Below are positions 10,421 through 63,723 of a stretch of 64,000 nt of DNA, piece after piece; within the stretch, counting starts at the first letter, position 1; each line of letters starts with the position of its first letter. Below the pieces are notes generated by a model. The model saw nothing but the letters and a program-made list of their open reading frames with translations, was not told the origin of the DNA and ran no database searches. A program made the translations under genes and the position numbers. The stretch is from IMG/VR virus record IMGVR_UViG_3300046557_000512, positions 16,302 through 80,301 of that record, one strand, 5' to 3'. The stretch comes from a virus.

Positions 10421-10972
10421 TTATGCGGTCGCCAGCGATTCTATCAGCTTGTTGCCTTTCGACCGATTGGTTTTTTGCTTGGCGACGCGAAGATTGTTCT
10501 GGACATGGAGACCGCAGACGTTCTTGCCCTGCAGCGGCACGATATGGTCGACCTCGTAGGGCACACCTGTCTGCGCTGATAGCGCGGCGGCGGTCTCATA
10601 GTAGAGGGTGATCGCGTCCTGATCCGCCCATTTCGGCGTCGCTTGGAGTATGCGAGCACGACGTCGCGCAGTCGCAGCGTTAGCCTTGTCTGGATTGTCG
10701 CGGATCCATTGGCGACCGTAGGCCCGCTTCTGCTCGATGTTCGCTTCATTCCAGCGATCGTTGCGGGCTCTCACTTTGTCTTTATTCTCGCGTTGCCATG
10801 TCGCGATGTAGTCGACCTTCGTCAAGCGCACGTCCGCCTCGCAGTCGAGGCAGTTGAAGTTGCCCGTGCGACGCTTGGCGATGTGACCTTTGTTACATGG
10901 CCTGCCCGTAAAATAATGCCGCAAACCTTGGGCCTTAGCATCTTTTCGGGAGATCAGATTCACGCGAACCAT
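10421..10972 (-). CDS. HNH endonuclease, probably free-standing homing type
   Basis: At 183 aa it has an N-terminal Zn-binding segment (CNKGH...CLDCEAD), a basic helical middle and a C-terminal HNH core (VDHIVPLQGKNVCGLHVQNNL). It overlaps the end of the metallophosphoesterase by 13 bases and lies just before the motif A copy that serves phoH, a common kind of place for a mobile homing gene. A DNA-packaging HNH is less likely because it is far from the terminase. Confidence 0.8.
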   Translation of the reverse strand: MVRVNLISRKDAKAQGLRHYFTGRPCNKGHIAKRRTGNFNCLDCEADVRLTKVDYIATWQRENKDKVRARNDRWNEANIEQKRAYGRQWIRDNPDKANAATARRRARILQATPKWADQDAITLYYETAAALSAQTGVPYEVDHIVPLQGKNVCGLHVQNNLRVAKQKTNRSKGNKLIESLATA

Positions 10973-12618
10973 CTACCATTCATCAGCGTTATCAAGCAAC
11001 GCTTCCCGTTCGGGTAAACGAGACAGTGCGTATGGTCCCAAGAGGACATGCCGCGATTGTAACCTTGGTCCAGGCTGCCCGAGACCCCGACCACAACCGC
11101 GCCGTCGATGATCTGCGGACTGTGGGTGTGTCCGCTGATCGACTTGGGTCCGGCGCGTGTGAATTGCTTGGGACTGCCGCGCGATCCATTGGCGCCGAGA
11201 TGCCCGTGCATGGCGCACTCAATGTCGCCGCAAATGATATATGTGTCGTCCTCACCGACAAACTCGATGTTCGCCGTGAGACCAGCTGACAGGTCGTTGA
11301 GCACATGCTCGAACACCGGTGGTGTCTGCACGCCCAGTCCCAGCTGCTGGTAATAGTAGGTCTGACACTCAAGGAAGAAGACCGCGTTCTCAGGGTCCTC
11401 CCGATAGTCGGCCGTCTTGAGCCATGTCACCAGAGCCTGGTCATGATTGGATTCGACGACCACGGAGCGACACCAAGGGCGCGAGGTGTCTACGAGGAAT
11501 TGGGCACAACCCGACAGCGCATCACGCACGTTGGCGGTGTCGTGCGCATGGGTCGCGAACCTAAAATGGTGATCTTTGATTCGGTGGTGGTTTCGAGCGG
11601 TGAAGTCGGACAGATCATGAAAGAACTGGTGACGCGGCCGGAAGCGATCGAGTAGACCGCCCTCGCCCCATGTCGTGCGCTCAACGATCGGGTCGAGCTT
11701 CTCGTGGTGGATGTCCCCATAGACCAGGGCTTCTGCCCGGTGGTCGGTGGTCACGTTGCCGCGCTCCACACGGCGATCGAGGTCGTAGAAGCTGCCGTCG
11801 TCTTCGGCCAGCAGGTGCCGGCAGAAGAACGAGCCATCAGGGTGCAACTCGACGAGCACGCAGCCGATCACATGGTGGAAGCTAGCCTTGATGCCCGCCT
11901 TCTTCTGGACGTAGTTCGGCATTGTGACGAAGCCGGTGGTCATCAGCTGCTTGGTGCGCGCCATCTTGGCCGTCGCAACCGACTGCAACTGGACCTTGGC
12001 GTGCGGGAACACGCCCCACTTATCGCGCGTGTAGGTCTCGAAGCCCGACAGGGGATTGGTGGCCGTAGGAAGCGTATTCATCTCCCCGCAGAACAGGAGA
12101 CCATCGCCTATCTCGACCTGGTCTTGGGTCCAGTATTTCATGATACGCGGGTGCCACCAGTGCTTGTCCGCGTCGTTCTTGTCGTGGCTCTCAAACAGCT
12201 GCTTGTTGTAGGTCGAGCCAGAAATCATGGTCTCGGAATCACCGAGCCACGCCGCATAGGCTTCCATGTTGTCCATGAAGCCGTGGTGGACCTCAGATCC
12301 ATCTTGGCCAGCGCCGAGGAAGAAGTAGCGAACCCCCTGCCCCGGCGCGCGCGGCTTCGGTTTTATCGGATCGGTGCGCGACCACACCGGCACGGTCTTC
12401 ACTTCCTCGACCGGCGCCTTCGGTCGACGCGCGCCGCGGCTGCGATCGATGAGTTCCGCGGTGTCGGCGTCGAGCTCGCGTGCCAGGGTGCGCATCTCGC
12501 CGGCGCGGTTGCGCACGGTCTTGACGCTGACACCCAGCTCGTCGGCCACGTCGTCGATCGTCGGGAACCGCGCGGTGTCGTTGTAGACAGCGGCGAAGCG
12601 ACTATCGAAGGCTCGCAT
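10960..12618 (-). CDS. Metallophosphoesterase with N-terminal HTH (T5 A1-like?)
   Basis: The ATG at 12618 overlaps the lysozyme stop (TGATG), giving 552 aa. The frame is open upstream but there only reads the lysozyme gene out of frame. Residues about 20-45 are HTH-like (IDDVADELGVSVKTVRNRAGEM). The C-terminal two thirds carry calcineurin-type metal motifs: GDIHHEK, ESNHDQA (a GNHD variant), CGDIECAMHGHLG and SGHTHSP. Large phage metallophosphoesterases of this size include the T5 A1 DNA-transfer protein, but that match is from memory. It is translated together with the lysozyme. Confidence 0.65.
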   Translation of the reverse strand: MRAFDSRFAAVYNDTARFPTIDDVADELGVSVKTVRNRAGEMRTLARELDADTAELIDRSRGARRPKAPVEEVKTVPVWSRTDPIKPKPRAPGQGVRYFFLGAGQDGSEVHHGFMDNMEAYAAWLGDSETMISGSTYNKQLFESHDKNDADKHWWHPRIMKYWTQDQVEIGDGLLFCGEMNTLPTATNPLSGFETYTRDKWGVFPHAKVQLQSVATAKMARTKQLMTTGFVTMPNYVQKKAGIKASFHHVIGCVLVELHPDGSFFCRHLLAEDDGSFYDLDRRVERGNVTTDHRAEALVYGDIHHEKLDPIVERTTWGEGGLLDRFRPRHQFFHDLSDFTARNHHRIKDHHFRFATHAHDTANVRDALSGCAQFLVDTSRPWCRSVVVESNHDQALVTWLKTADYREDPENAVFFLECQTYYYQQLGLGVQTPPVFEHVLNDLSAGLTANIEFVGEDDTYIICGDIECAMHGHLGANGSRGSPKQFTRAGPKSISGHTHSPQIIDGAVVVGVSGSLDQGYNRGMSSWDHTHCLVYPNGKRCLITLMNGRWFA

Positions 12619-13115
12619 CAGGCGTCTTGCCCCGTGCGCATCATCTTCTCGAGGCGATCGGCGCGTGCGCCAACCTGGCCGTCCCATTTCGAGTTCGCCA
12701 TGCCATCGGCGGCGGCGCCGTATTTCCCGGTGCGGACGAACTCGAGGGTGTTCTTGAAGCCAGTCAGGCCCTTGATGCCGTTGCCGATGCCCATGTTGAA
12801 GCACATGTTCAGCAGCACACGCTGGCGGACGTCGTCGAGCTTGCGCCACCAAGGCAGCTTGCGGTCGAGGTCGGCTTCGCTGCGCTTGATGTCGTTGAAA
12901 AAGAGATAGTCCGACTGCGCTTGCGTAATGCCGTACTTGATGATGCTGGCGACGGTGATGCCCAACACCCGAGTCTCCTCGGCCGAGATGCCGACGTCGT
13001 CGAGGTTGCGCCCCTTGCCGATCGACAACTTGCCGGCGGTGCAGCGGTAGACGCGAAGCTTGTCGCCTTCGTCACGCGCAATCTCCTGCGCCAGTTTGAG
13101 GTGGTTATAGTCCAT
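12618..13115 (-). CDS. Endolysin, T4-type lysozyme (GH24)
   Basis: At 165 aa it has the usual length. The catalytic region reads DEGDKLRVYRCTAGKLSIG. This is the Glu, 8 residues, Asp/Cys, 5 residues, Thr pattern of the family, here Glu-Cys-Ser, so the T4 Asp20 position is Cys and the Thr26 position Ser. It cleaves the glycan backbone of peptidoglycan. No signal or SAR segment is visible, so release would need the holin encoded next door. The start at 13115 lies seven bases after motif A copy 5; an in-frame GTG inside the motif is discounted. Confidence 0.85.
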   Translation of the reverse strand: MDYNHLKLAQEIARDEGDKLRVYRCTAGKLSIGKGRNLDDVGISAEETRVLGITVASIIKYGITQAQSDYLFFNDIKRSEADLDRKLPWWRKLDDVRQRVLLNMCFNMGIGNGIKGLTGFKNTLEFVRTGKYGAAADGMANSKWDGQVGARADRLEKMMRTGQDA

Positions 13116-13122
13116 GGAAACC

Positions 13123-13146
13123 TCGTGTGTGCCGGACACTATGCAC
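13123..13146 (-). promoter_or_regulatory. Motif A copy 5
   Basis: GTGCATAG ... GCACACACGA on the minus strand, seven bases before the lysozyme start. It overlaps the stop codon of the 31-aa ORF upstream. Confidence 0.75.
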
Positions 13147-13234
13147 TACGGGCGTAGTGGTGCCGTTGGGTTTGGGGAGCGGTGCGCTCCGGGATCAGCA
13201 GCGCGAGGAGCGCCGCGAGGATTGTGCGGCGCAT
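13139..13234 (-). CDS. Possible 31-aa hydrophobic peptide in the lysis cassette
   Basis: The ATG at 13234 overlaps the holin stop (TGATG). The product has a short hydrophobic stretch (ILAALLALLI) after two arginines and then a polar, basic tail. Its stop lies in motif A copy 5. It could be a small lysis modulator, but the frame is short and may be chance. Confidence 0.35.
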   Translation of the reverse strand: MRRTILAALLALLIPERTAPQTQRHHYARSA

Positions 13235-13620
13235 CAATCCTTCTTCATGCCGGGCAGCGACGGAATGATGTCCTTCACGACGTTTGTAATCGTCGTCAAA
13301 GGACTCTCGGCGAACTGCTTCGACGCGTTCATGAAGCCGAGAACGATGTTCTCGGTCATCACGCCGGCGATGCCGGCCGCCGTAAGCTGCCAGGGAAGAC
13401 TGCGGCCCTCCATGATCCACCCCGCCAGCAAAGCGCCGACGCCACCGAACATGCAGCCGGCGGCGAGCTTCAGTGCCGTGCGTCGCGTCGCATCGAAGAT
13501 CGACGCGAGCAACGTGATGAGCGAACCGCCCACGAAGAACAGCGTGTGGCCGATCGCCGACGCGTAGTCGGGGCTTACGCTCGCTGCGATATTGGCCGCG
13601 GCGGCGGCGTTGTTCGACAT
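13234..13620 (-). CDS. Putative holin (128 aa, membrane)
   Basis: The ATG at 13620 overlaps the upstream stop (TAATG). The product has hydrophobic segments at about 24-42 (IGHTLFFVGGSLITLLASIF), 49-65 and 78-95, and ends in a charged tail (GMKKD), a layout usual for class I holins. Position between another membrane protein and the lysozyme supports a lysis role: timed membrane holes that release the endolysin. Either of the two membrane proteins could be holin or antiholin. Confidence 0.6.
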   Translation of the reverse strand: MSNNAAAAANIAASVSPDYASAIGHTLFFVGGSLITLLASIFDATRRTALKLAAGCMFGGVGALLAGWIMEGRSLPWQLTAAGIAGVMTENIVLGFMNASKQFAESPLTTITNVVKDIIPSLPGMKKD

Positions 13621-13970
13621 TATCGGTTGCCCCAGAGATAGACCGGCTCGAGACCGCGCGAGACGATCAGCTTGTGCTTGATGAACAGGTGTGCGGTGAA
13701 GAAGAGAATGCCCATGCCGGCATGAAGCGGCATCCACATGTTGGTGTGCGGGCCGACGTAAAAGAGGCCGTTGAGCAGTGCCCAGAACCCCAACACCGCG
13801 GTGTGTGCGATCGTGAAGATTGTCGAGCAGACCACCCAAACATAGGCGAGAGCGTTTTCACGGCCGCGCAGGATGTCTCGCGGCGTGAAGTGGAAATCGA
13901 CCCCACTCCCGATCGCCAGCAGCCCCGAAATCAGGGCCAGCAGCGAACATGCGAGTGCGAGAGCGATCAT
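13620..13970 (-). CDS. Membrane protein of the lysis cassette (116 aa)
   Basis: Three or four hydrophobic segments are evident: residues 2-21, about 43-66 and 83-97. The product ends with a short polar tail. It is the first gene after motif A copy 6 and is coupled to the putative holin. It could be an antiholin or a second holin; no family is recognised. Confidence 0.6.
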   Translation of the reverse strand: MIALALACSLLALISGLLAIGSGVDFHFTPRDILRGRENALAYVWVVCSTIFTIAHTAVLGFWALLNGLFYVGPHTNMWMPLHAGMGILFFTAHLFIKHKLIVSRGLEPVYLWGNR

Positions 13971-14001
13971 AAGCTGAATTTCTCCATGCAGGTTATCCTA
14001 T

Positions 14002-14025
14002 GCATGTGTGTTGAATAGCATGCAG
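14002..14025 (-). promoter_or_regulatory. Motif A copy 6
   Basis: CTGCATGC ... ACACACATGC on the minus strand, 31 bases before the membrane protein start. It forms a divergent pair with copy 7. Confidence 0.75.
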
Positions 14026-14114
14026 TCTACCACGGGTAGTGGAGCTGTGCAACGGCAACGCAACGTTTGGATTGGTGCGAGGTCATCGTGCGGGCTACCT
14101 TGAAAACCGGGTAT

Positions 14115-14138
14115 GTGCATGGTAGATAACACAACTGC
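14115..14138 (+). promoter_or_regulatory. Motif A copy 7
   Basis: GTGCATGG ... ACACAACTGC on the plus strand, 68 bases before the start of the forward gene at 14207. It is 89 bases from the oppositely oriented copy 6. Confidence 0.7.
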
Positions 14139-14206
14139 GTGTTATACTCAACAGCGGTTGCACGCCGTCAACGCGTTTCACCACCCATCGGAGTTCACCA
14201 AACAAA

Positions 14207-14644
14207 ATGCTCGAATTTAACCTTGCTGACGGCAACGCTTTGGACATCCCGGCGGCCAGTATCTCGATGTTCGAGAGCCTGACGGCCGTGAAGAACGAAG
14301 CCTACCCCGACGCCAAATCGTTCATCCGCTATTCGATCGGCGAGATGGACTACCAAGCCCTGCTGACCGACAGCTTCGACGACGTCATTCGTGTCCTCGA
14401 CATCAACGTCCGGCCTGGCCCCTGGCTCATCCTGACCAACGCCAACGGCAACAAGCTTGGCGTGATCGCCGGCAATATCCTGGCACGTAAGGGCCTGCCG
14501 TCCGGCGAGACCGAACTATCGATCGCGCTGAATCAGAACGGCCAGATCGGCGACTTCACCGTCAGCGAGACCCGCGACACCGTCAAGACGATGATGGGCG
14601 ACCTCAATCGGCCGGCCGGTCTCATCGAAATACCCACCGCTTAA
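14207..14644 (+). CDS. Unknown forward gene between lysis and tail blocks (145 aa)
   Basis: The ATG at 14207 has GGAG 12 bases upstream. The soluble acidic product has no motif I recognise; its tail-proximal location suggests a virion or moron function, without proof. Together with the next gene it forms the only plus-strand unit in the left 44 kb, with its own motif A copy and terminator. That arrangement suggests expression separate from the late genes. Confidence 0.7.
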   Translation: MLEFNLADGNALDIPAASISMFESLTAVKNEAYPDAKSFIRYSIGEMDYQALLTDSFDDVIRVLDINVRPGPWLILTNANGNKLGVIAGNILARKGLPSGETELSIALNQNGQIGDFTVSETRDTVKTMMGDLNRPAGLIEIPTA

Positions 14645-14667
14645 CCCCACAAACCAGGAGAAGGACC

Positions 14668-14943
14668 TTGGATATTCCCGAAAACCCCACCCCCGAAGAA
14701 CTGGAGGAAATGCGAGCTGCCGTCGAAGCCGAAGATCAACGCATTGCCCAGGAAGCTATTGCGGCTCGCGCCGCTAAGCTTGCTCCCTTGCGTGCGATCC
14801 TCGACTCGAACGGCTTCAAGACCGTCTTGAACGGCCTGCGCGACATTCGCGACGGAGGCACCCTCTCGGAGGAGCCGAACATTGCTCCTCACCTCGATGC
14901 ACTGGTGACCATCATGCCAGTGCTGGATACCAACGCGAACTAA
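14668..14943 (+). CDS. Small helical unknown protein (91 aa)
   Basis: The start is TTG at 14668 behind a strong AGGAG. The first half is a charged coiled-coil-like helix (PEELEEMRAAVEAEDQRIAQEA). It is co-transcribed with 14207-14644 and followed directly by an intrinsic terminator. The family is unknown. Confidence 0.65.
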   Translation: MDIPENPTPEELEEMRAAVEAEDQRIAQEAIAARAAKLAPLRAILDSNGFKTVLNGLRDIRDGGTLSEEPNIAPHLDALVTIMPVLDTNAN

Positions 14944-14949
14944 GACGAA

Positions 14950-14972
14950 GGGGGCCGGAAGGCCCCCTTTTA
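14950..14972 (+). terminator. Intrinsic terminator of the 14207-14943 unit
   Basis: Stem GGGGGCC-GGAA-GGCCCCC followed by TTTTAG, seven bases after the stop. The convergent minus-strand gene ends inside it. Confidence 0.85.
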
Positions 14973-15416
14973 GTATTCTAGCGCTGGCGGTTCGGGCCAG
15001 ACGACTTCTTCTGGCGATCCAAAGTCGATCGCGATCCGATGCAGAGCGCGGATCATCACCCGCACCTGAGCCTGGCATCCCGGCGTAAGCGGGGAGCACC
15101 CCTCATCCACAGCCCAGCGCCAGCGATCGATGCGCAGATTGCGCTCTGATCGCACATGATCCCCCATCGGTGTATCCCAAGGGTTGGCGGCAGCGCGCGC
15201 CGCGGCGTCCGCCTGTTCGGCTTCAGCAGCGATCTCGCGCTGAGTGTGAATGATGCAGCAGGCGCAATAACCCTTCTCTCCATCTTCGTCAGGCACGATC
15301 GCGAAAGCCGGCAGACTCTTGCCACAGCCCCCGCATTCGTAACCGGCAGGGTCGAGCTTGGATGGGTCGACCCCCGCGGCGATCGCGTGATCTTCGAGAT
15401 TGATATAATCGGTCAC
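14970..15416 (-). CDS. Tail fibre assembly chaperone-like protein with zinc site
   Basis: At 148 aa, it has an N-terminal CGGCGK ... CACC zinc-ribbon-like pair. The C-terminal part (RSERNLRIDRWRWAVDEG, SPLTP, then GSPEEVVWPEPP) matches the Phage_TAC/XkdW-type tail fibre assembly chaperones, which end in PxxVxWPxxP. It lies at the end of the fibre operon, where such chaperones usually are. It would assist folding or attachment of the long fibre encoded two genes upstream. Confidence 0.65.
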   Translation of the reverse strand: MTDYINLEDHAIAAGVDPSKLDPAGYECGGCGKSLPAFAIVPDEDGEKGYCACCIIHTQREIAAEAEQADAAARAAANPWDTPMGDHVRSERNLRIDRWRWAVDEGCSPLTPGCQAQVRVMIRALHRIAIDFGSPEEVVWPEPPALEY

Positions 15417-15417
15417 G

Positions 15418-15753
15418 CTATGGTCTCACAGTCACGGTGGATTTCTGGCTGGCGGGCGTGGCAGAGCGTTCACCTGACCCGGCGCCCTGTGCCTGCCAGA
15501 TGAGATGCGAGAAGGCGCTCAGAGCTGCTGCGGTGCCTGAGTAGCCGTCGATCGTGAGACCGACTGCCTGGACCCCGCTGCCCATCTGAACGACGATGTC
15601 CTCAAACCAGTTGAGCGTGGCCGTGTTTGAGCCCGTCGTGCCCTGCGACACCGAGACGTTGTCCTGCATGATTTTCTGCCAGACGCCGGCCTTCTTGGCC
15701 CAGATGCCCACGGTGACGGTGCCGTTATATTCCCACGAACCGGGGACAGACAT
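15418..15753 (-). CDS. Small tail-fibre-associated protein (111 aa)
   Basis: The beta-rich sequence (GSWEYNGTVTVGIWAKKAGVWQ...) is rich in Gly, Ser, Thr and Val, as in fibre tips and receptor-binding accessory domains. It lies directly between the 1737-aa fibre and its chaperone. The product is probably a minor fibre component; the family is unknown. Confidence 0.6.
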   Translation of the reverse strand: MSVPGSWEYNGTVTVGIWAKKAGVWQKIMQDNVSVSQGTTGSNTATLNWFEDIVVQMGSGVQAVGLTIDGYSGTAAALSAFSHLIWQAQGAGSGERSATPASQKSTVTVRP

Positions 15754-15768
15754 TTCAATCGTTCCTTA

Positions 15769-18700
15769 TCAGTCGGGGATGAATGACGAGTGGAGGGTGA
15801 TCGTGCCGGAGAATTGCAGCCGGTAGTTGCCGTCTGTCGCGTCGGGCGAGCTCGACTTGTCGATTTGCAGAGTTGGTCCGCTCCCTGGCGCCGTCGAGGT
15901 CGTCAGGTCGTAGTTCGACGGGCTTGCCGGCGTCAGGATACGAAGACGAGCCGTGAAGCCGGTAGAGGTCAGACTGTCGGCGTAGAGCTTGTAGGTCTCG
16001 CCAGCGGAAAGTGGCGCCAGGTTGTTCTGCTTGAAATCGAGCGCAGGCAGAGCTCCAAGATCCGTGCCGAAGCTGACGACGTCGCCATCCGAGACAAGGA
16101 AATCCTTCGACTTCAGCGCTACAGGCCAGCCTTGCCCGGAGCCGAGACGAATGAACGCGCCGGCCTGAAGACCCCCGGTAAAGACGGCGTTGCCGCCGAC
16201 CATCTGGAGCGTGAGCGTCCAGCCGGCGGTGGTCTGATTATAGAGCGAGATGTTGGACGCGCCGATCGCGACGTCCGACGTCAGAGTTCCATTGTCATCC
16301 TTTGCACGGAAGCTGATGAACGCAGCCGCGGCGCCAGCCACAACTTCCTTTTGGGCGTAGGCTTCGACCTTGCCGTTGACCGTAACAAGCGCTCCCTCGG
16401 TCGTGGTGACCCGCGACGACAGCGACGTGATGCTCGACGTAGCTGCCTGCGACGCAATCTCCTGGTCGGTCGCAGCACGGAATGATGCCCGATACCATTC
16501 GATCACCTTGGCCGCGCGCGTCAGTTGGGCCCAGTTCGACAAGGCGAACAGAACAGGCTCGGTTGCCGCTGCGTCTTGCAAGCGAACCAGTTTCGCGAAA
16601 CGATACGTGGTGCCCGCGACGCCTGCACCGACCGCGTTGCCGCTGCTGTCGGGATCAGAGAAAAAGTCGATCCGACCCACATCCACCTGATAGGAATTGC
16701 TGCTGTTGTAGCCTTGAAGCAGCATGCTCGACCCGGCCAGCGAACCGCTGATAAGCCTGACTTCTGCTTCCAGCACATACCAGCCGAGACGAAGCGTGCC
16801 TTGACCCATTGCGGTAGTGTTGTTCCAGCTCTGCTGATGTCCGCATTCTTCGGCGGCCGCCACCGTATCGCGAATGGCGAAGCCACCGCGAGGGCTGGTT
16901 ACGCGGGCGCGCGTGGCTGCACCGGTGTAGGCCCAAACGCTCCAATTATCGGGCGGGTTCGACGCGTTCGCCCACGCGTTGAAGAGCGGGTTGACGTTGA
17001 TCGAGTTGGCGCCGATCGTCGCGGCCAGGTTGGCGCTCGACAGCGCGGCAGCTGCGCTGGCCGACGATGCCGCTGCGAAGCTCTGCGCATTGGTCGCGCT
17101 GGTCGATGCGTTGCCCGCTTGCGTGGAGGCCGTGACGGCCGAGCCGGCCGCGGCAGTCGCGCTGTTCGACGCGTTCGTGGCGGACGTGTTTGCGTTCGAG
17201 GCTTGGGTGCTTGCAGTGGACGCGCTGCTCGAGGCGTTGCCGGCGCTGGTGTTGGCGGCGGTGGCCGATCCGCTGGCGGCAGTTGCAGACGTCCCCGCGT
17301 TGGTCGCGCTGGTCGAGGCATTCGACGCGGACGTCGCAGCGGCGGTCGCGGATCCAGCTGCATTGAACTGATCGGTGACGTCCTCGAACTTGCACGAGGC
17401 CAGCTGATAGGTGTTGCTCGCATTGAGCGCGGCAAAGATCGGCCTGATATAAACGCCACCGGCAGCAATGACCGTATCGCCCGACACCTCAGTGACGCGC
17501 GTCACCCAGGTGTTCTGGGTCAGGATGCCACTGCCCGTGGAGATATTGGTCGCCTGATTATAGGCGTCGTTCAGGTAGGTTAGGTAGCAGGCGAACTGAG
17601 GGCTGCCGACCGGCACGTTTGTGACGCGCGCCGTCATCGTGACGCGATAGCGCCTGCCCGCCTGCGCCTTCATCACGCCGATCGACGAGTAATAGGTCGA
17701 GCCCGCACCGTCGACTTCGAACACCTTGCCGATGCCCGTAACCGTTGGGAACCGGAAGGTGGCGTTGGTCTGTATCGACACCCTGGTCGCCGGGTCTCCC
17801 GTATAGCCGGCCTGCCAGAACTTGCCCTCTTGCGTGAAGTCGCTGGGGAAGGTCGCGGCGGCGCTTTGAAGCGCGCCTGCTGCCGAGCTCGAGGCCGAGA
17901 CCTGGGAAGCCAGCGCAGCACTCGCGCTGTTCGACGCGTTGGTCGCCTGGGTGCTCGCGGTAGAGGCGCTACCAGACGCAGCCGTCGCCGAGCCAGCCGC
18001 AGCCGTTGCCGAATTGGATGCGTTGGTCGCCTGCGTGGACGCTGTGTTGGCCGAGCCGGCCGCATTCGTCGCCGAAGTGGCCGCGGTGGTTGCACTGGTC
18101 GAAGCATTGCCGGCGCTGGTCGAGGCGTTCGTGGCGCTGGTCTGTGCAGCACTCGCGCTGGTCGAGGCATTCGTGGCGCTGGTCGAAGCAGTGCTGGCCG
18201 AGCTGGCCGCTGCCGACGCACTCCCCGCAGCGGCGGATTGCTCGGTGATGTCGCGGATGTAAAGCGCGGTGACATCGACACGGGCCGCGGTTGCAAGGTT
18301 GGCCCCAGTGACATCGCGGTTGGTCAGAAGGCCCAACCGAAATACTTCCCCGGCAACCCCAGACGTCGTCGTGTCATAGGTCCAGGTGAGCGTCTGAACG
18401 GTGCCGTCGAGGAGAACGTAGGGAGACAGAACAACGTTGCCGCTATTGGCCTTCGCCGCGTTGAAGCGCGTCAGATATGCGCCCGCGTAGTTTGCGGCCG
18501 ATCCCGATACCTTCTTGATGACCGCGACAAGCTGATACTTGCGACCAGGCGCCCACACGATCTTGCTGTTGCACCAGGCGCCCCACGGATACGAAGCGGC
18601 CGCGGTGTCGAGCTGGATCGTCTTTCCGTCCGTCGACATGGTGTTAGCCGGCAGCGAACCATCGGCGTAGTTGGTGAACGCCTGCGTGAAGATCCCAGCC

Positions 18701-58501: not shown

Positions 58502-59371
58502 TCAAGCGGTCACGGTCGCGTCGGTCGCTTGCGTCATGTAGCGATTGCGGAACAGCTGGTAGAACCCATGATCGCGGTTGATGCTGATACCCCCGCGCGC
58601 ATGCTCTACCGTGCAGATGGTAGCGAGGCCCAGCACGTCGAGCACGTTGCGCACCTGGCTGCTCTGCGTGTCACGTCCACCGGACATGAACTTGTGCTGA
58701 TAGTCGCGCAAGTAAGCTGCTAGCTCTGCGTCGTTCACCAGCTTGTCAAAGCTAGCGTTCGACAGAAACGCGCGGTTGACCTTGTTACCGATCGGTGACG
58801 CGTCACGGTCTGCGACAGCGATAGAACAAGCGATGAACGCTTGCGTCACACGCTGAAAGCGCGATGCGTTACCGCAGATGAACGCACACACCTCAGTCAC
58901 CTTGTCGAGGCCCTTAGCGGTGAACTCGTTATTCGACATCACCTTGCGACGAATGACGTTCACCGGTTCGACGTTGAGGGCGAGGAAGCCGCGAGCGACA
59001 GCAACCGCGTTAGCGAGCATGTTGCGCTTTGCTTTAGCGTAGCTGGATGCGCTGTCATTGAGATCGAGACCCCGCGACTCTTCGAACGTGTCACGCGCCG
59101 CAAAGGTAGCGCGAATGTCGTCGATCATGGTGTCCACCGTGCCTTGATCGAACGAAAGCGCGATATCGCGCAACGACTGCATTGCGTCGCTATCGGTAAC
59201 GTCAATCACCGGTGTGTCGCTGTCGGTCGGTGCGAGCGCTTCAAGCACCGCATTGACGTCGACTTGATCGGTCGCGGTCAGCGTGTCGATCGTGATGGTT
59301 TCGAGGGCGACATTGGTTTCGTCGGTCACGTTGACGACAACCGGGGCTTGCTTGCGAGTGCGCTTAGTCAT
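58502..59371 (-). CDS. Unknown protein (289 aa) with atypical base use
   Basis: The first 75 residues are Thr/Asp/Val-rich and disordered. The rest is helical with a few cysteines and ends in a His/Arg stretch (HARGGISINRDHGFYQLFRNRY). Codon choice (many AGC, GCT, TTG, GAA-ending codons) seems less GC-biased than that of its neighbours. It has both a motif B hairpin in its leader and motif A copy 24 further up. No family is recognised. Confidence 0.6.
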   Translation of the reverse strand: MTKRTRKQAPVVVNVTDETNVALETITIDTLTATDQVDVNAVLEALAPTDSDTPVIDVTDSDAMQSLRDIALSFDQGTVDTMIDDIRATFAARDTFEESRGLDLNDSASSYAKAKRNMLANAVAVARGFLALNVEPVNVIRRKVMSNNEFTAKGLDKVTEVCAFICGNASRFQRVTQAFIACSIAVADRDASPIGNKVNRAFLSNASFDKLVNDAELAAYLRDYQHKFMSGGRDTQSSQVRNVLDVLGLATICTVEHARGGISINRDHGFYQLFRNRYMTQATDATVTA

Positions 59372-59396: not shown

Positions 59397-59412
59397 ACCG
59401 CACCGCTGCGGT
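59397..59412 (-). promoter_or_regulatory. Motif B hairpin 1 (gene 58502-59371)
   Basis: Stem ACCGCA/TGCGGT with loop GCGG on the minus strand, followed by GAAAGG and the ATG at 59371. A CTAAAG -10-like hexamer lies just upstream. Confidence 0.6.
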
Positions 59413-59562
59413 GACACCTTTAGAGGACGATTCGCTGTGCGGGGCAAGGGTCAAAATGTCCTGCAATTATAGATATTTCCGGGATAGTTTCGGACCATAT
59501 CAGCGAATCACCTAATCGATTGATCGATTCGTCATGCATATAGAGCGCGCTTCGCTCAATCT

Positions 59563-59586
59563 GGATGTGTGTTGTTGACTCTGCAC
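59563..59586 (-). promoter_or_regulatory. Motif A copy 24
   Basis: GTGCAGAG ... ACACACATCC on the minus strand, 191 bases before the gene that ends at 59371. It is the most distant copy from a start. Confidence 0.6.
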
Positions 59587-59612
59587 CGAATCACTCCTAG
59601 CTAGTGATTCGT

Positions 59613-59630
59613 CGGTGCAGCGGTGCACCG
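59613..59630 (+). promoter_or_regulatory. Motif B hairpin 2 (gene 59649-59801)
   Basis: Seven-bp stem CGGTGCA/TGCACCG with loop GCGG on the plus strand, followed by GAAAGG and the ATG at 59649. GTGATT lies three bases before the stem. Confidence 0.65.
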
Positions 59631-59648
59631 CTTTTGAAAGGTCTTCAG

Positions 59649-59801
59649 ATGGTCGACTTCTGGTGCATCTTCGCAGTGCTGAGCGCGTTTGCGATGGTCG
59701 TTCTCCTGGTCAAGCTGATCGACATGCGGGACGCGCGCACCATGACGCGCCGGCATCACCGGGTGCGGATCAACAAACTCGCAGATTTCCGCGGTCGGTA
59801 A
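59649..59801 (+). CDS. Single-pass membrane protein (50 aa)
   Basis: A hydrophobic segment (residues 4-23) is followed by a very basic tail (RRHHRVRINK). The ATG follows GAAAGG and a motif B hairpin. The longer frame upstream runs through the hairpin and is rejected. Function unknown; the topology suits small phage membrane modulators. Confidence 0.6.
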   Translation: MVDFWCIFAVLSAFAMVVLLVKLIDMRDARTMTRRHHRVRINKLADFRGR

Positions 59802-59877
59802 AACGGTCGCACGCTAGGGCCGCGCGTCCCTGGTGGCGCGCGGTCATGCGCAGCGCCCCGCGCGCTCCCTGGGCATC

Positions 59878-59921
59878 CCTCGGCCCCGCGCGCGCGCCAC
59901 TGGTCCCATGGATCCCCTAGG
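59878..59921. repeat. CCNNGG block 1
   Basis: CCATGG at 59906 and CCTAGG at 59916 are exactly 10 bases apart. CCTCGG lies at 59878. The 359-base gap 59802-60160 has no credible gene and holds this block, block 2 and a terminator. Confidence 0.5.
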
Positions 59922-60014
59922 CCCCGCGCTGCCCGATCCTTTCGCCGATCCGCGCCATCACCGGGCTAGCCGTATACCGCCACAGCCATAGCCGTTCACA
60001 AAGGCAGCCTTTCG

Positions 60015-60075
60015 CCGTGGGAGCCCGCGGGCACCGAGCTTGCGCCGATCCATGGGTGCCCTAGGCATGCCATGG
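60015..60075. repeat. CCNNGG block 2
   Basis: CCGTGG 60015, CCGCGG 60025, CCATGG 60050, CCTAGG 60060 and CCATGG 60070. The last three are on an exact 10-base period. Confidence 0.55.
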
Positions 60076-60097
60076 CGCGCCACCCGGCACTCTCGCG

Positions 60098-60123
60098 AAA
60101 AAGGCGGCACCATTGGCACCGCC
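60098..60123 (-). terminator. Intrinsic terminator of the 60161-60507 pair
   Basis: On the minus strand a 9-bp stem (with two G-U pairs) GGCGGTGCC-AAT-GGTGCCGCC is followed by TTTTT, 38 bases after the stop at 60161. Confidence 0.75.
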
Positions 60124-60160
60124 TCTCCCGTGGTGTGGATGATCGCGCGTATGGCGCGGA

Positions 60161-60298
60161 TTACTTGCCCTTCATGCGACCTCCCTTTCTGCGCGCCCAC
60201 CTGGCCCGCCTTTCCTCTCGATCCACAGCGGGCTCGCCGAACGCGAGATCCATGAAAACGATGGCGCTCGACACGCGGTCACGCTCGCGCCGGCTCAT
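60161..60298 (-). CDS. Basic 45-aa protein
   Basis: The ATG overlaps the preceding st​op by four bases. The product is Arg-rich with an amphipathic middle (SSAIVFMDLAFGEP). It is the second gene of a two-gene unit that ends at a clear terminator. Function unknown. Confidence 0.55.
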   Translation of the reverse strand: MSRRERDRVSSAIVFMDLAFGEPAVDREERRARWARRKGGRMKGK

Positions 60299-60507
60299 TT
60301 CGAGCCAAACCCGCAGCGCAGCTTGAGCTTGCCGGAGATCCGCGGAGCTGATGCGAGCTCGGTCGTGGTGACCACGCCCTGCTCGACCTCGCCACGGATC
60401 GCGCGGTCCCAGTCGCGCTTACGCATGCCGTTGGTCTCTCCCACGCCGACGCGCGAGACTGCTCCCCCGTTGCCCAGGTAAGCTGTGACCAGATCCTTCG
60501 TTCCCAT
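60295..60507 (-). CDS. Small basic protein (70 aa)
   Basis: The ATG has GAGAGG six bases upstream and follows motif B hairpin 3. The product (TKDLVTAYLGNGGAVSRVGVG, then KLKLRCGFGSK) is basic. No family is recognised. It is coupled to 60161-60298. Confidence 0.6.
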   Translation of the reverse strand: MGTKDLVTAYLGNGGAVSRVGVGETNGMRKRDWDRAIRGEVEQGVVTTTELASAPRISGKLKLRCGFGSK

Positions 60508-60527
60508 GATTGACCTCTCATTCGTGA

Positions 60528-60543
60528 TCAGCACCGCTGCTGA
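60528..60543 (-). promoter_or_regulatory. Motif B hairpin 3 (gene 60295-60507)
   Basis: Stem TCAGCA/TGCTGA with loop GCGG on the minus strand. TCAAAT lies three bases before the stem. Confidence 0.6.
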
Positions 60544-60634
60544 CCATTTGAGAGTGCGCGATCGCGCGTAGGCGGTCGGGTGGCGAATGAGAGGGAGCGC
60601 GCTGGCATCGAGAAACGCCTGGTGCCAGCGGACC

Positions 60635-60711
60635 CCTCGGAAACGCCTGGTGCGCGTGGACCGGGTGCCTGCATGCCATGGACTGCCTCGGGAAGCCTAG
60701 GCTCGCCATGG
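60635..60711. repeat. CCNNGG block 3
   Basis: CCATGG 60676, CCTCGG 60686, CCTAGG 60696 and CCATGG 60706 follow an exact 10-base period, with CCTCGG also at 60635. It is in the 340-base gap 60508-60847, which also holds the hairpin AAGGCGA/TCGCCTT near 60731-60760. No credible gene is seen there. Confidence 0.6.
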
Positions 60712-60847
60712 ATCATCGGCGCACAAGACAAAGGCGACCGAGGGAGCCCCGATCGCCTTGTCCCGCACCCAGGGGTTGAAAGGTCCTAAGACACCCTGGC
60801 TACTCGGTTCGTATATCTTGGCGCGCTAGGACCCGGCGCGCAAGTGA

Positions 60848-61027
60848 TTAGCCGACGTCGATCGGCATGATCGTGATTTCGGTGGGGCCATCGGACGCCT
60901 GGAGTTCGGCGAGAATGGGGTCGAGCGCGGTCATCATGGACTCGTCTGTATCGAGCCCCTCGATGCCAACCTCGATCACCGCGGCGAGTGCGACACGCTG
61001 GATGCCGGTGAGTTGGAAGCAAGCCAT
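60848..61027 (-). CDS. Small protein (59 aa)
   Basis: The ATG overlaps the preceding stop (TGATG). A beta-alpha-beta-like pattern (VALAAVIEVGIEG, MMTALDPILAELQAS, EITIMPIDVG) suggests a tiny compact fold. It is last in a three-gene coupled unit. Function unknown. Confidence 0.6.
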   Translation of the reverse strand: MACFQLTGIQRVALAAVIEVGIEGLDTDESMMTALDPILAELQASDGPTEITIMPIDVG

Positions 61028-61212
61028 CAGCGCTTGTCCTCGACGACACAGCGGAAGCGCGCGGTCACCCGCGAACCGGGGCCATCGTATAGCCGCGCAT
61101 TCACCGCCTTGGCGATGGCACGCTGACAGTCGGCCGGCGACCGGAAGCTGTCGAGCTGATAGATATTGCCGACGCCATTGATCGTCAGCACCATGACCAG
61201 GATGTGGAGCAT
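61027..61212 (-). CDS. Small exported protein (61 aa)
   Basis: The ATG overlaps the preceding stop. An N-terminal hydrophobic stretch (LHILVMVLTI) is followed by a polar part with two cysteines (DCQRAIAKAV ... FRCVVED) that could form a disulfide after export. Function unknown. Confidence 0.6.
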   Translation of the reverse strand: MLHILVMVLTINGVGNIYQLDSFRSPADCQRAIAKAVNARLYDGPGSRVTARFRCVVEDKR

Positions 61213-61289
61213 CAGCGCATGTCCTCGATGAAGCACACGCCGGCGGGGATGACCGCCAGCACGAGCATGATGATGCCGATGAAGTCCAT
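61212..61289 (-). CDS. 25-aa membrane peptide
   Basis: The ATG follows GAAAGG and motif B hairpin 4. The product is one hydrophobic segment (FIGIIMLVLAVIPAGVCFI) with a short acidic end. Its stop overlaps the next start. The motif B leader and coupling are the reasons to accept so short a frame. Confidence 0.5.
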   Translation of the reverse strand: MDFIGIIMLVLAVIPAGVCFIEDMR

Positions 61290-61312
61290 GTTTCGCGTCC
61301 TTTCGATACCGC

Positions 61313-61326
61313 GAGCACCGCTGCTC
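61313..61326 (-). promoter_or_regulatory. Motif B hairpin 4 (genes 60848-61289)
   Basis: Stem GAGCA/TGCTC with loop GCGG on the minus strand. A second related hairpin, GCACC-AGC-GGTGC, lies directly upstream (61331-61343). Confidence 0.6.
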
Positions 61327-61382
61327 ACGAGTATTGAATGCACCGCTGGTGCGCGGAACGCGGGTGGCTTATATATCTGGCA

Positions 61383-61466
61383 CCTCGGGATACCGCGGTT
61401 GCGCCGTGCAACGCCTCGGCGAGCCTAGGGTGCCCATGGGAGTTCGCGTGCCGCGGGGAGCCGTGG
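61383..61466. repeat. CCNNGG block 4
   Basis: CCTCGG 61383, CCGCGG 61393, then CCTCGG 61414, CCTAGG 61424 and CCATGG 61434 on an exact 10-base period, then CCGCGG 61451 and CCGTGG 61461. It lies in the 424-base gap 61290-61713, where I see no credible gene. Confidence 0.6.
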
Positions 61467-61713
61467 GAGTGTTGGCGCGAGAGGGAATGCGCTGGTGTGG
61501 CGGTGCCGCGGGGATAGCGGGAGTTCGTGGGGTCGGCGGCTGGCTCGGGTGCGCGAGAAGCCAATTGACAGAGGCTTGGCGCCCGCCGACCACCCTACCA
61601 TCGGCACGACCCGCTATACCCGCTCTGCCCCTTACGCTCCCCTAGCCTGCACGCTGCCCGTGCTCTCTCATTCTCTAGGTTGCCGCAACCACGGTGCCCT
61701 CTAGCTTAGCGCT

Positions 61714-61902
61714 CTATACGCTCTCTGCCCCTATGGTTCCTCTATACGTTGAACCACCTGCCCATGCGCTCAGCGCTGCTCCCAGGAGACCGAGGATCCC
61801 TGGTGCCGTGTCTCCTACCCATAGCGCTCCTATAGCGTTCGACAGCATCATCCCTGCCGAGATCAGTGCGAGCTTGGGTGCTAGGGTTGCTATGGTGTTC
61901 AT
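61714..61902 (-). CDS. Small membrane protein (62 aa)
   Basis: The ATG has AGGGGAAGG upstream and overlaps the preceding stop by four bases. Two hydrophobic segments are present (residues 9-28 and 32-47). It is the last gene of the long coupled operon that begins at 63642. Function unknown. Confidence 0.6.
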   Translation of the reverse strand: MNTIATLAPKLALISAGMMLSNAIGALWVGDTAPGILGLLGAALSAWAGGSTYRGTIGAESV

Positions 61903-62219
61903 GCTTGCCTTCCCCTCTCGAAGTCCTCTTGCGACTGCCACACCCCTTTGATCCCTTTACGGTTGAGCGATGCCAGTCTGCGTTCTTCCCTGGTGGGTGG
62001 TGGAGCTCCGAGCCTGTTATCGTTGATGTGCTGCCTCAATGCGTCTCTTGCCGCGATCGATCGTTGACGGGCTTGCCGGTGAGTGTCGCATTGCTGGTTA
62101 TGGCGCCATTGATCCTTGCAGATAGGACACGTCCTCCATCCCTCCCCGATCTCGCGTTGGGTTTCGCGTTCGGCTTTCAGCTCGGTCTTGATGCGCTCAT
62201 AGGTGGCCTGGTCCATCAT
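61899..62219 (-). CDS. Zinc-site protein (106 aa)
   Basis: The ATG at 62219 overlaps the preceding stop. A charged N-terminal helix leads to CPICKDQWRHNQQCDTH, a CxxC ... CxxH zinc-finger-like site, followed by a basic half. This suggests a nucleic-acid-binding protein. No family is recognised. Confidence 0.6.
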   Translation of the reverse strand: MMDQATYERIKTELKAERETQREIGEGWRTCPICKDQWRHNQQCDTHRQARQRSIAARDALRQHINDNRLGAPPPTREERRLASLNRKGIKGVWQSQEDFERGRQA

Positions 62220-62539
62220 GCCTCGAGATTCTTGGGTGGGATGCGTTCGACCAGCCTGAGCTCGCCGTCGATGTTGAGGTAGCGTTCGATCGTGCCATCT
62301 GCGAACACGCCGTAGCCGCTCCACCACTTCCATGCCGTCGGTTCCTCGGGTTCGGTGACCTCTATGGTGTCGATCGCCTCGCCATTCTTGAAGCGCGTGA
62401 TCTTGTGGATCCTGGGTTTGCCCAGCGTGCCTCCTACGAACATGGCGCCGTCGAAGCCTTCGATATGCGGCTTCAGCCAATCGGGCGCTTTCGCCATGTC
62501 GATTCCGGTGAACGGCTTGCTGATCTGCGGAATGGTCAT
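62216..62539 (-). CDS. Unknown protein (107 aa)
   Basis: I take the ATG at 62539 with GGAAAG upstream, overlapping the preceding stop. The beta-rich, Trp-containing product (HKITRFKNGEAIDTIEVTE, AWKWWSGYGVFADG) has no recognised motif. Confidence 0.6.
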   Translation of the reverse strand: MTIPQISKPFTGIDMAKAPDWLKPHIEGFDGAMFVGGTLGKPRIHKITRFKNGEAIDTIEVTEPEEPTAWKWWSGYGVFADGTIERYLNIDGELRLVERIPPKNLEA

Positions 62540-62715
62540 TTGCTTTCCAGTTCCCATCTCAGAGCCTGTGCGGTCACGATCGCGATAGGTCGGTCGCCGC
62601 CAATTTGCTCGCTGCTCGGTTCCAAGTCGATGACGAGGGTCGCCTTGCCGAAGATGTATGTGTGGCCGTTTAGCCTGACCTCGCCGGGGCCGAGGGTGAG
62701 GTTCATCTTCTTCAT
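62536..62715 (-). CDS. Small beta-rich protein (59 aa)
   Basis: ATGA overlaps on both sides fix its limits. The product (LTLGPGEVRLNGHTYIFGKA, then LVIDLEP) is probably a compact beta fold. Function unknown. Confidence 0.6.
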   Translation of the reverse strand: MKKMNLTLGPGEVRLNGHTYIFGKATLVIDLEPSSEQIGGDRPIAIVTAQALRWELESK

Positions 62716-62996
62716 GCCGCTGCCTTATTCTCATCGACCCACTTGGTCAGCCATGCGTCATAGGCATCGTGGTCGACCAGGGAGGCGCTCTGTCCTGATC
62801 CGCGCGGGCCGGGCATGAACGCCTCGGGGTGCTCGCACTGGAAGTCCCTGATGCGGTCCCTGTTCCAGAACGTGAAGCCGCCATCGAACGCCGGCGTGTT
62901 GAGCTTGCCGCGATCGATGGCGGCCTGATCCTCAGGGCTGTTGCCGTGCGCACGCGCGTAATTGGCGTAGCGCGGGTTGTCGCCTAGTTCGGTCAC
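62712..62996 (-). CDS. Unknown protein (94 aa)
   Basis: The sequence (DNPRYANYARAHGNSPEDQ, then GGFTFWNRDRIRDFQ, and YDAWLTKWVDENK) resembles short proteins seen in early regions of many phages. No function is known. The stop overlaps the next gene. Confidence 0.6.
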   Translation of the reverse strand: MTELGDNPRYANYARAHGNSPEDQAAIDRGKLNTPAFDGGFTFWNRDRIRDFQCEHPEAFMPGPRGSGQSASLVDHDAYDAWLTKWVDENKAAA

Positions 62997-62999
62997 GTT

Positions 63000-63221
63000 C
63001 TACTCCTCGTGTTTGGTCCAGCCAGCTTTCGCCGCTGCGCTGTGCGCCTCGATCGCGCGCTCGATTGACTTCTGGGCGTCGCGGAGCTGAGACCATGCGT
63101 ATGATGGGTCGGACAGCTCGCCGAAGCCGTTATAGACGCGGCCGTCGAAATAACTGAGCGCCTGGCTCGCCTTCTCCGTTGCCTCGACGATGATGTTGGT
63201 CTGCTCCTTGGCGATCGTCAT
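63000..63221 (-). CDS. Helical small protein (73 aa)
   Basis: Largely one or two helices (EQTNIIVEATEKASQALSYF, LRDAQKSIERAIEAHSAAA). The ATG overlaps the preceding stop by four bases. Function unknown. Confidence 0.6.
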   Translation of the reverse strand: MTIAKEQTNIIVEATEKASQALSYFDGRVYNGFGELSDPSYAWSQLRDAQKSIERAIEAHSAAAKAGWTKHEE

Positions 63222-63418
63222 CCTCGGTCAATCCTTGCTTGCCGCAGCGTGTCATTGCTGCCTGCCTCTATATGAGCATATGCCTTGGCGGCGTCGAGAA
63301 GCGCTTCCCTGAAGCCGATGTGCGTCAGGTAGCGCAGGGCTGTGTTGGTGGAGACCGGCGTCTTGGTCGCCATGCTGGTGACGAACGCCTCGATCGCCCC
63401 GTCCTCTGCGACGCTCAT
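63218..63418 (-). CDS. Helical small protein (66 aa)
   Basis: The ATG overlaps the preceding stop. The sequence (TALRYLTHIGFREALLDAAKA) is helical, with no motif. Function unknown. Confidence 0.6.
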   Translation of the reverse strand: MSVAEDGAIEAFVTSMATKTPVSTNTALRYLTHIGFREALLDAAKAYAHIEAGSNDTLRQARIDRG

Positions 63419-63642
63419 GCCGCGGTGAGGTTCTGGCTATAGGTGGAGACCAGCTCATCCACTTTGTCGTAGCGAATCGTCTCGACGGGCTTGAACTCAT
63501 TTTCGATTTCGCTGACCAGCGCTGCCAGGTCTTTTTCGTTGCCGCGATACGCGTTGCTCTCGACGGTGTGAGCCTCCTGGCCCGCCTCACCGAGGATTGC
63601 GACCATTCCTCTGCCGCGCTCGTTTGCGTAATAAAGCCTCAT
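63415..63642 (-). CDS. First gene of the right-end operon (75 aa)
   Basis: The ATG at 63642 is preceded by GAAAGG and motif B hairpin 5. The alpha/beta product (MRLYYANERGRGMVAILGEAG ) has no recognised family. Its stop overlaps the next start, beginning a chain of eight coupled genes. Confidence 0.6.
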   Translation of the reverse strand: MRLYYANERGRGMVAILGEAGQEAHTVESNAYRGNEKDLAALVSEIENEFKPVETIRYDKVDELVSTYSQNLTAA

Positions 63643-63663
63643 GCCTTCAACCTTTCACTACGC

Positions 63664-63677
63664 CAGCACCGCTGCTG
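63664..63677 (-). promoter_or_regulatory. Motif B hairpin 5 (operon 61714-63642)
   Basis: Stem CAGCA/TGCTG with loop GCGG on the minus strand. TAGAAT, a good -10 hexamer, lies three bases before the stem. Confidence 0.65.
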
Positions 63678-63690
63678 ACGATTCTACTAT

Positions 63691-63704
63691 GTGTTCGATC
63701 GACG
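63691..63704 (+). repeat. Iteron-like single site
   Basis: GTGTTCGATCGACG differs from the repA iteron by one base. It lies just upstream of the -10-like hexamer of the right-end operon, where a -35 or operator would be. One isolated copy may be chance. Confidence 0.35.
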
Positions 63705-63723
63705 AGGCATGCGGGTGGCATCA

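Follow-up and report, generated by a model that had tools for sequence, protein, structure and literature searches.

Hairpin promoters of the N4 virion RNA polymerase are small hairpins located just upstream of early phage genes. In T4-type phages, C(UUCG)G hairpins with a variable stem and a fixed tetraloop recur in the mRNA leaders of one genome, and the gene 32 mRNA is stabilized by such a 5' hairpin (PMC8948821). Stem-loops at the 5' end, of the ompA/papA type, block RppH and RNase E (PMC3997798). The SAS/ESAS elements of cluster K mycobacteriophages lie beside the start codons of many non-structural genes, at 11–19 copies per genome and mostly in one orientation; SAS is a fixed 13-mer, GGGATAGGAGCCC, that contains the Shine-Dalgarno core, and RNA pairing of the extended repeats (ESAS) is little supported according to the authors (PMC3203893). 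Repeated start-associated phage elements were described years ago, but without a mechanism.

We analyzed hairpins with a GCGG loop in a Sphingomonas phage lineage. Like the T4-type hairpins, they combine a variable stem with a fixed tetraloop in phage mRNA leaders and recur within one genome; however, their loop, which A-U or C-G closes, is GCGG(U) and not UUCG (A-GCGG-U in 54/54 tetraloop sites, instead of the CUUCGG of the T4 type), and here each transcription unit has a single hairpin, with its loop at a fixed distance from the promoter. As with SAS/ESAS, an element is repeated at the start codons of many genes, but the GCGG-loop element precedes the Shine-Dalgarno sequence, has another sequence, and strongly conserves its pairing. 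The predicted place of the stem, at the 5' terminus, matches the ompA/papA type, whereas here the loop does not vary and many units make up a putative phage regulon. In contrast to the N4 promoters, the hairpin is located downstream of a separate promoter-like element and tolerates wobble on the sense strand, and the T run that follows the hairpin of an intrinsic terminator is replaced by a Shine-Dalgarno sequence and a start codon. We regard the GCGG-loop hairpin as a kind of phage leader hairpin outside any named family, with SAS/ESAS as the nearest published pattern. No description of this hairpin was found in the literature searched, and Rfam 15 gave no match at the gathering cut-off for the window and five relative loci.

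Hairpins in the window and in related genomes

The window, the whole 64,000-nt stretch of DNA that was analyzed, comprises bases 16302–80301 of an 80,301-bp IMG/VR record (G0; coordinates marked G0 are those of the whole record). Tape-measure, J-type tail, and portal proteins are encoded by the record, indicating that G0 is a siphophage; an N4-like phage was rejected because these siphophage tail genes are present. The G0 portal protein is approximately 49% identical to those of SSU5-type phages and Rhizobium phage RHEph10. The five hairpins described in a sequence-only reading of the window were present at the positions it had given, each followed by the GAAAGG (GAGAGG in unit 3) and ATG that it had noted. 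The hairpins, their scores with covariance model R1, and the genes behind them are as follows.

59397–59412, minus strand: hairpin 1, ACCGCA.GCGG.TGCGGT, loop at 59403–59406, 23.1 bits; leader of a 289-aa protein gene
58502–59371, minus strand: 289-aa protein gene behind hairpin 1
59613–59630, plus strand: hairpin 2, CGGTGCA.GCGG.TGCACCG, loop at 59620–59623, 25.1 bits
59649–59801, plus strand: 50-aa ORF behind hairpin 2
60525–60546, minus strand: hairpin 3, TGGTCAGCA.GCGG.TGCTGATCA, loop at 60534–60537, nine pairs including one G-U, 26.4 bits
60295–60507, minus strand: 70-aa ORF behind hairpin 3
61309–61330, minus strand: hairpin 4, TCGTGAGCA.GCGG.TGCTCGCGG, loop at 61318–61321, nine pairs including two G-U, 26.1 bits
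61212–61289, minus strand: 25-aa hydrophobic mini-ORF behind hairpin 4
63661–63680, minus strand: hairpin 5, CGTCAGCA.GCGG.TGCTGGCG, loop at 63669–63672, eight pairs including one G-U, 24.7 bits
63415–63642, minus strand: 75-aa ORF behind hairpin 5

Hairpin 2 is the sole one of the five on the opposite strand; nearly all hairpins of one array share one strand. The exact sequence GCAGCGGTGC occurred five times in the window versus 0.45 times expected, a count reached in 0/100 shuffles, and A.GCGG.T hairpins with at least five Watson-Crick pairs also numbered five versus 0.2 expected (0/200 shuffles). The compensated outer stems listed in the sequence-only reading were borne out, but its stem lengths were not, the true stems comprising 6–9 pairs including G-U. 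The GCA/TGC pairs that it called constant were so within the window; across relatives, however, TCA/TGA and GAA/TTC also occurred, and A-GCGG-U, or just GCGGU, was invariant and nothing more. In unit 4, a second partial core copy, CCAGCGGTGC (within GCACCAGCGGTGC, 61340–61349, minus strand), was observed approximately 25 nt upstream of hairpin 4, in its promoter spacer.

Seven related genomes were compared, namely, G0, the IMG/VR contigs G1, G2, G8, G9, and G10, and G11, a 119-kb Sphingomonas MAG contig; the relatives were located by an IMG/VR pattern scan followed by a composite scan. G1 (IMGVR_UViG_3300031413_000005) is a 109-kb contig whose portal protein is 74% identical to that of G0. The hairpin array of G1 crosses the contig joint, so that the end of the G0 record probably falls within the array of G0. 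Approximately 126 bp near both ends of the G1 contig are identical, which makes circularity or circular permutation of this contig probable. An 855-kb contig of Sphingomonas sp. NFR04 also contains the hairpin units of G2.

Further matches were found in the relatives, giving 61 start-associated hairpins in the seven genomes (54 tetraloop sites with relaxed stems and seven sites lacking the A). Tetraloop hairpins next to start codons were also surveyed without bias in these genomes; A.GCGG.T accounted for 46 of the 76 found, and no other closing-plus-loop hexamer appeared more than twice. Because covariance-model E-values are rough and overstate matches in GC-rich genomes, the distribution is judged by clustering beside start codons and not by single hits. 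Among 301 Sphingomonadaceae genomes, a start-associated cluster was detected in one only, the phage-carrying MAG; covariance hits in these genomes were mostly single, those whose surroundings were inspected were mostly not start-associated, and a host-wide motif was rejected. Further collection scans of other phage groups yielded incidental hits only, and no recurrent leader loop was detected in the first 100 kb of RHEph10, which lies outside the lineage.

Stem covariation and the constant loop

The covariation that the sequence-only reading saw in the five stems was significant across the sites, with a score of 0.731 (shuffles, 0.134 ± 0.024; slid registers, no higher than 0.159); in the same analysis, double-change cells numbered 96 versus 26.9. 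Since the shuffle control leaves relatedness in place and sites within one genome could be mutual copies, a comparison of orthologous leaders was added. Across 14 disjoint orthologous gene pairs, 28 double compensatory changes, two wobble changes, and no broken pairs were counted, and the A-GCGG-U core was changed in 0/84 columns whereas the spacer was changed in 56/84. Four relatives, for example, have an orthologue of hairpin 1 in which the stem changes are compensated. When sites were picked on pairs 2-3 only, pairs 4–6 were Watson-Crick in 155/165 cases (53, 53, and 49 of 55 for pairs 4, 5, and 6, respectively), with four G-U and no A-C; this 4:0 ratio, although made up of small numbers, suggests that only the sense strand tolerates wobble. 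In seven sites the A is lost and GCGGU is kept as a five-base loop closed by C-G. Folding prediction gave a median weakest-pair probability of 0.91 for the inner stem. The RNA structure of the GCGG-loop hairpin is strongly supported. Loops of the form A-GAGG-U in place of A-GCGG-U were observed in G1 at 107525 (plus strand), 3822 (minus strand), and about 107250 (minus strand), and one of these leaders apparently belongs to the 289-aa orthologue; at least this orthologue has a different leader, which weighs against the mechanism proposed below.

An inverted repeat near the predicted transcription start might also serve as an operator at which a dimeric repressor binds the DNA. However, the stem keeps its complementarity with almost no constraint on its sequence, and the center AGCGGT is asymmetric and has one orientation relative to the gene, so that we consider an operator the least probable of the explanations weighed here.

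In nearly all units the loop lies 23–36 nt from the start codon with the Shine-Dalgarno sequence in between, a place from which the hairpin could act directly on the ribosome as a translational enhancer or standby site. The Shine-Dalgarno sequence is predicted to be only about half accessible (median 0.54), and a direct translational role without a factor is possible for this reason. Against this, the spacer is variable, as seen in the 56 changed columns, and we know of no clear anti-Shine-Dalgarno match for GCGGU; a direct action on the ribosome is thus quite improbable.

Upstream element and predicted transcription start

A GC-rich element with the consensus GCCACCCGCATSCC was detected 46–48 nt upstream of the loop in approximately 38 units, with a mean score of 11.6 versus 6.6 in shuffled sequence. 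Between this element and the stem are A-rich -10-like hexamers (CATAAC, TCTAAA, and GATAAC types), aligned and assigned by eye, that end approximately 13–16 nt before the loop. The following elements lie in the window.

60571–60584, minus strand: promoter-like element of unit 3, GCCACCCGACCGCC, 47 nt before the loop
61355–61368, minus strand: upstream element of unit 4, GCCACCCGCGTTCC
63706–63719, minus strand: upstream element of unit 5, GCCACCCGCATGCC
63686–63691, minus strand: proposed -10 hexamer of unit 5, CATAGT, placed by alignment with relatives

From the fixed spacing between element and loop, together with the A-rich hexamers, transcription is predicted to begin at the stem base. A -10 hexamer 3–5 bases before the hairpin, as given in the sequence-only reading (in unit 5 this would be TAGAAT), would instead have transcription start inside the stem. 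The hairpin is also present behind other promoter types and the element is present a few times without a hairpin, indicating that the hairpin is a leader module and not part of the promoter.

Hairpins that recur at fixed spacing closely upstream of start codons could instead act as DNA, either as a single-stranded hairpin promoter for a phage polymerase, as in N4, or as a cruciform. This explanation is very improbable: the tail proteins (tape-measure, J-type) mark a siphophage, the hairpin lies downstream of the promoter-like element and is also found without it, and the G-U cells without A-C cells mean that mismatches would fall on the template strand. A search for phage-type RNA polymerase (PF00940) gave no hit, with the control equally silent, and the large ORFs encoded tail proteins.

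A Sigma70_r2 search for a phage sigma factor behind the promoter also gave no hit. RHEph10 has a sigma-like gene between cobS and the DNA polymerase gene; the G0 gene at this position was rejected as a candidate and looks like a different, cysteine-bearing protein. At G0 10654–18626 (minus strand, partly left of the window), a CobS/CobT-like pair adjoins a PolIII-type DNA polymerase, as in RHEph10, and the intervening sigma-like gene of RHEph10 is absent from this locus.

Just before the stem, GANTC (the CcrM site) occurred in 19/61 leaders, versus approximately one expected, and an ACACA-like stretch in 20; in the window, GANTC is located at about 63680–63684. GANTC is depleted approximately 1.8- to 3.6-fold in these phage genomes, and GcrA is encoded in both host genomes searched and not in the six viral records. 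A link between the GANTC of hairpin leaders and host cell-cycle methylation is possible.

Proposed mechanism and downstream genes

The GCGG-loop hairpin looks like a previously undescribed common tag on dozens of Sphingomonas-phage messages, either read by something or protective. We propose that it is a cis-acting RNA element at the 5' ends of mRNAs from arrayed small genes, probably expressed early, in this phage lineage. Each unit would be transcribed from a promoter of its own, starting where the stem begins, and the emerging RNA would fold into a hairpin of 6–9 bp, with GCGG(U) as its loop, that immediately precedes the Shine-Dalgarno sequence. The stem would take away the single-stranded 5' end required by RppH and RNase E, and the invariant loop would provide a docking site for an RNA-binding factor that acts in trans and comes from the phage or the host; such a factor would unite these mRNAs into a single regulon, most probably through their protection or through control of their translation. 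This mechanism, in which a trans factor reads the loop of a 5'-terminal hairpin and the stem shields the end, is probably correct, because the stem varies yet pairs, the loop is fixed, wobble is tolerated on the sense strand, the start codon is close, and the distance to the promoter-like element is fixed. The start, the early timing, the binding factor, and its effect are what we infer within this best explanation. More tentatively, a phage-wide RNA regulon may exist in which a phage or Sphingomonas protein reads GCGGU and switches or protects many mRNAs together.

A pure 5' mRNA stabilizer would need no binding factor, as the stem alone would block 5'-end-dependent decay and the loop would be fixed by best folding or shared ancestry. 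The 5'-terminal position predicted from element spacing and -10-like hexamers agrees with this explanation, 5' stems have a known effect (PMC3997798), and the T4 UUCG hairpins likewise pair free stems with a fixed loop (PMC8948821). In contrast, the loop is the same in 84/84 orthologous columns despite turnover of the stem and the spacer, and GCGGU persists where the loop size differs. Moreover, AGCGGU is to our knowledge not an extra-stable loop, and the phrase "GCGG tetraloop" was not found in the literature searched. Stabilization by the stem alone is therefore rather unlikely; the invariant loop favors a binding partner over simple stability, and both together are possible. Since covariation backs the structure and the loop is fixed, the search for a partner of the loop can begin directly, with a list of its candidate regulon at hand. 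For the annotation of Sphingomonas phages, which are poorly studied, the analysis also supplies a covariance model along with a promoter-like motif.

The scanned genes behind the hairpins encode small phage proteins without assigned function, and no binding protein for the GCGG loop was found. Orthologues of the 70-aa ORF in G1, G2, and G11 also carry the hairpin. The 289-aa protein was rejected as the RNA-binding factor, its model being modest (pLDDT 70.5) and PDB and BFVD giving no informative match; it has no relative in PHROGs, Pfam, PDB, INPHARED, or PLSDB. Its gene occurs in six genomes, where it is always the last (promoter-distal) unit of the array, and the family shares a nearly invariant TQSSQxRNVLDVLG stretch.
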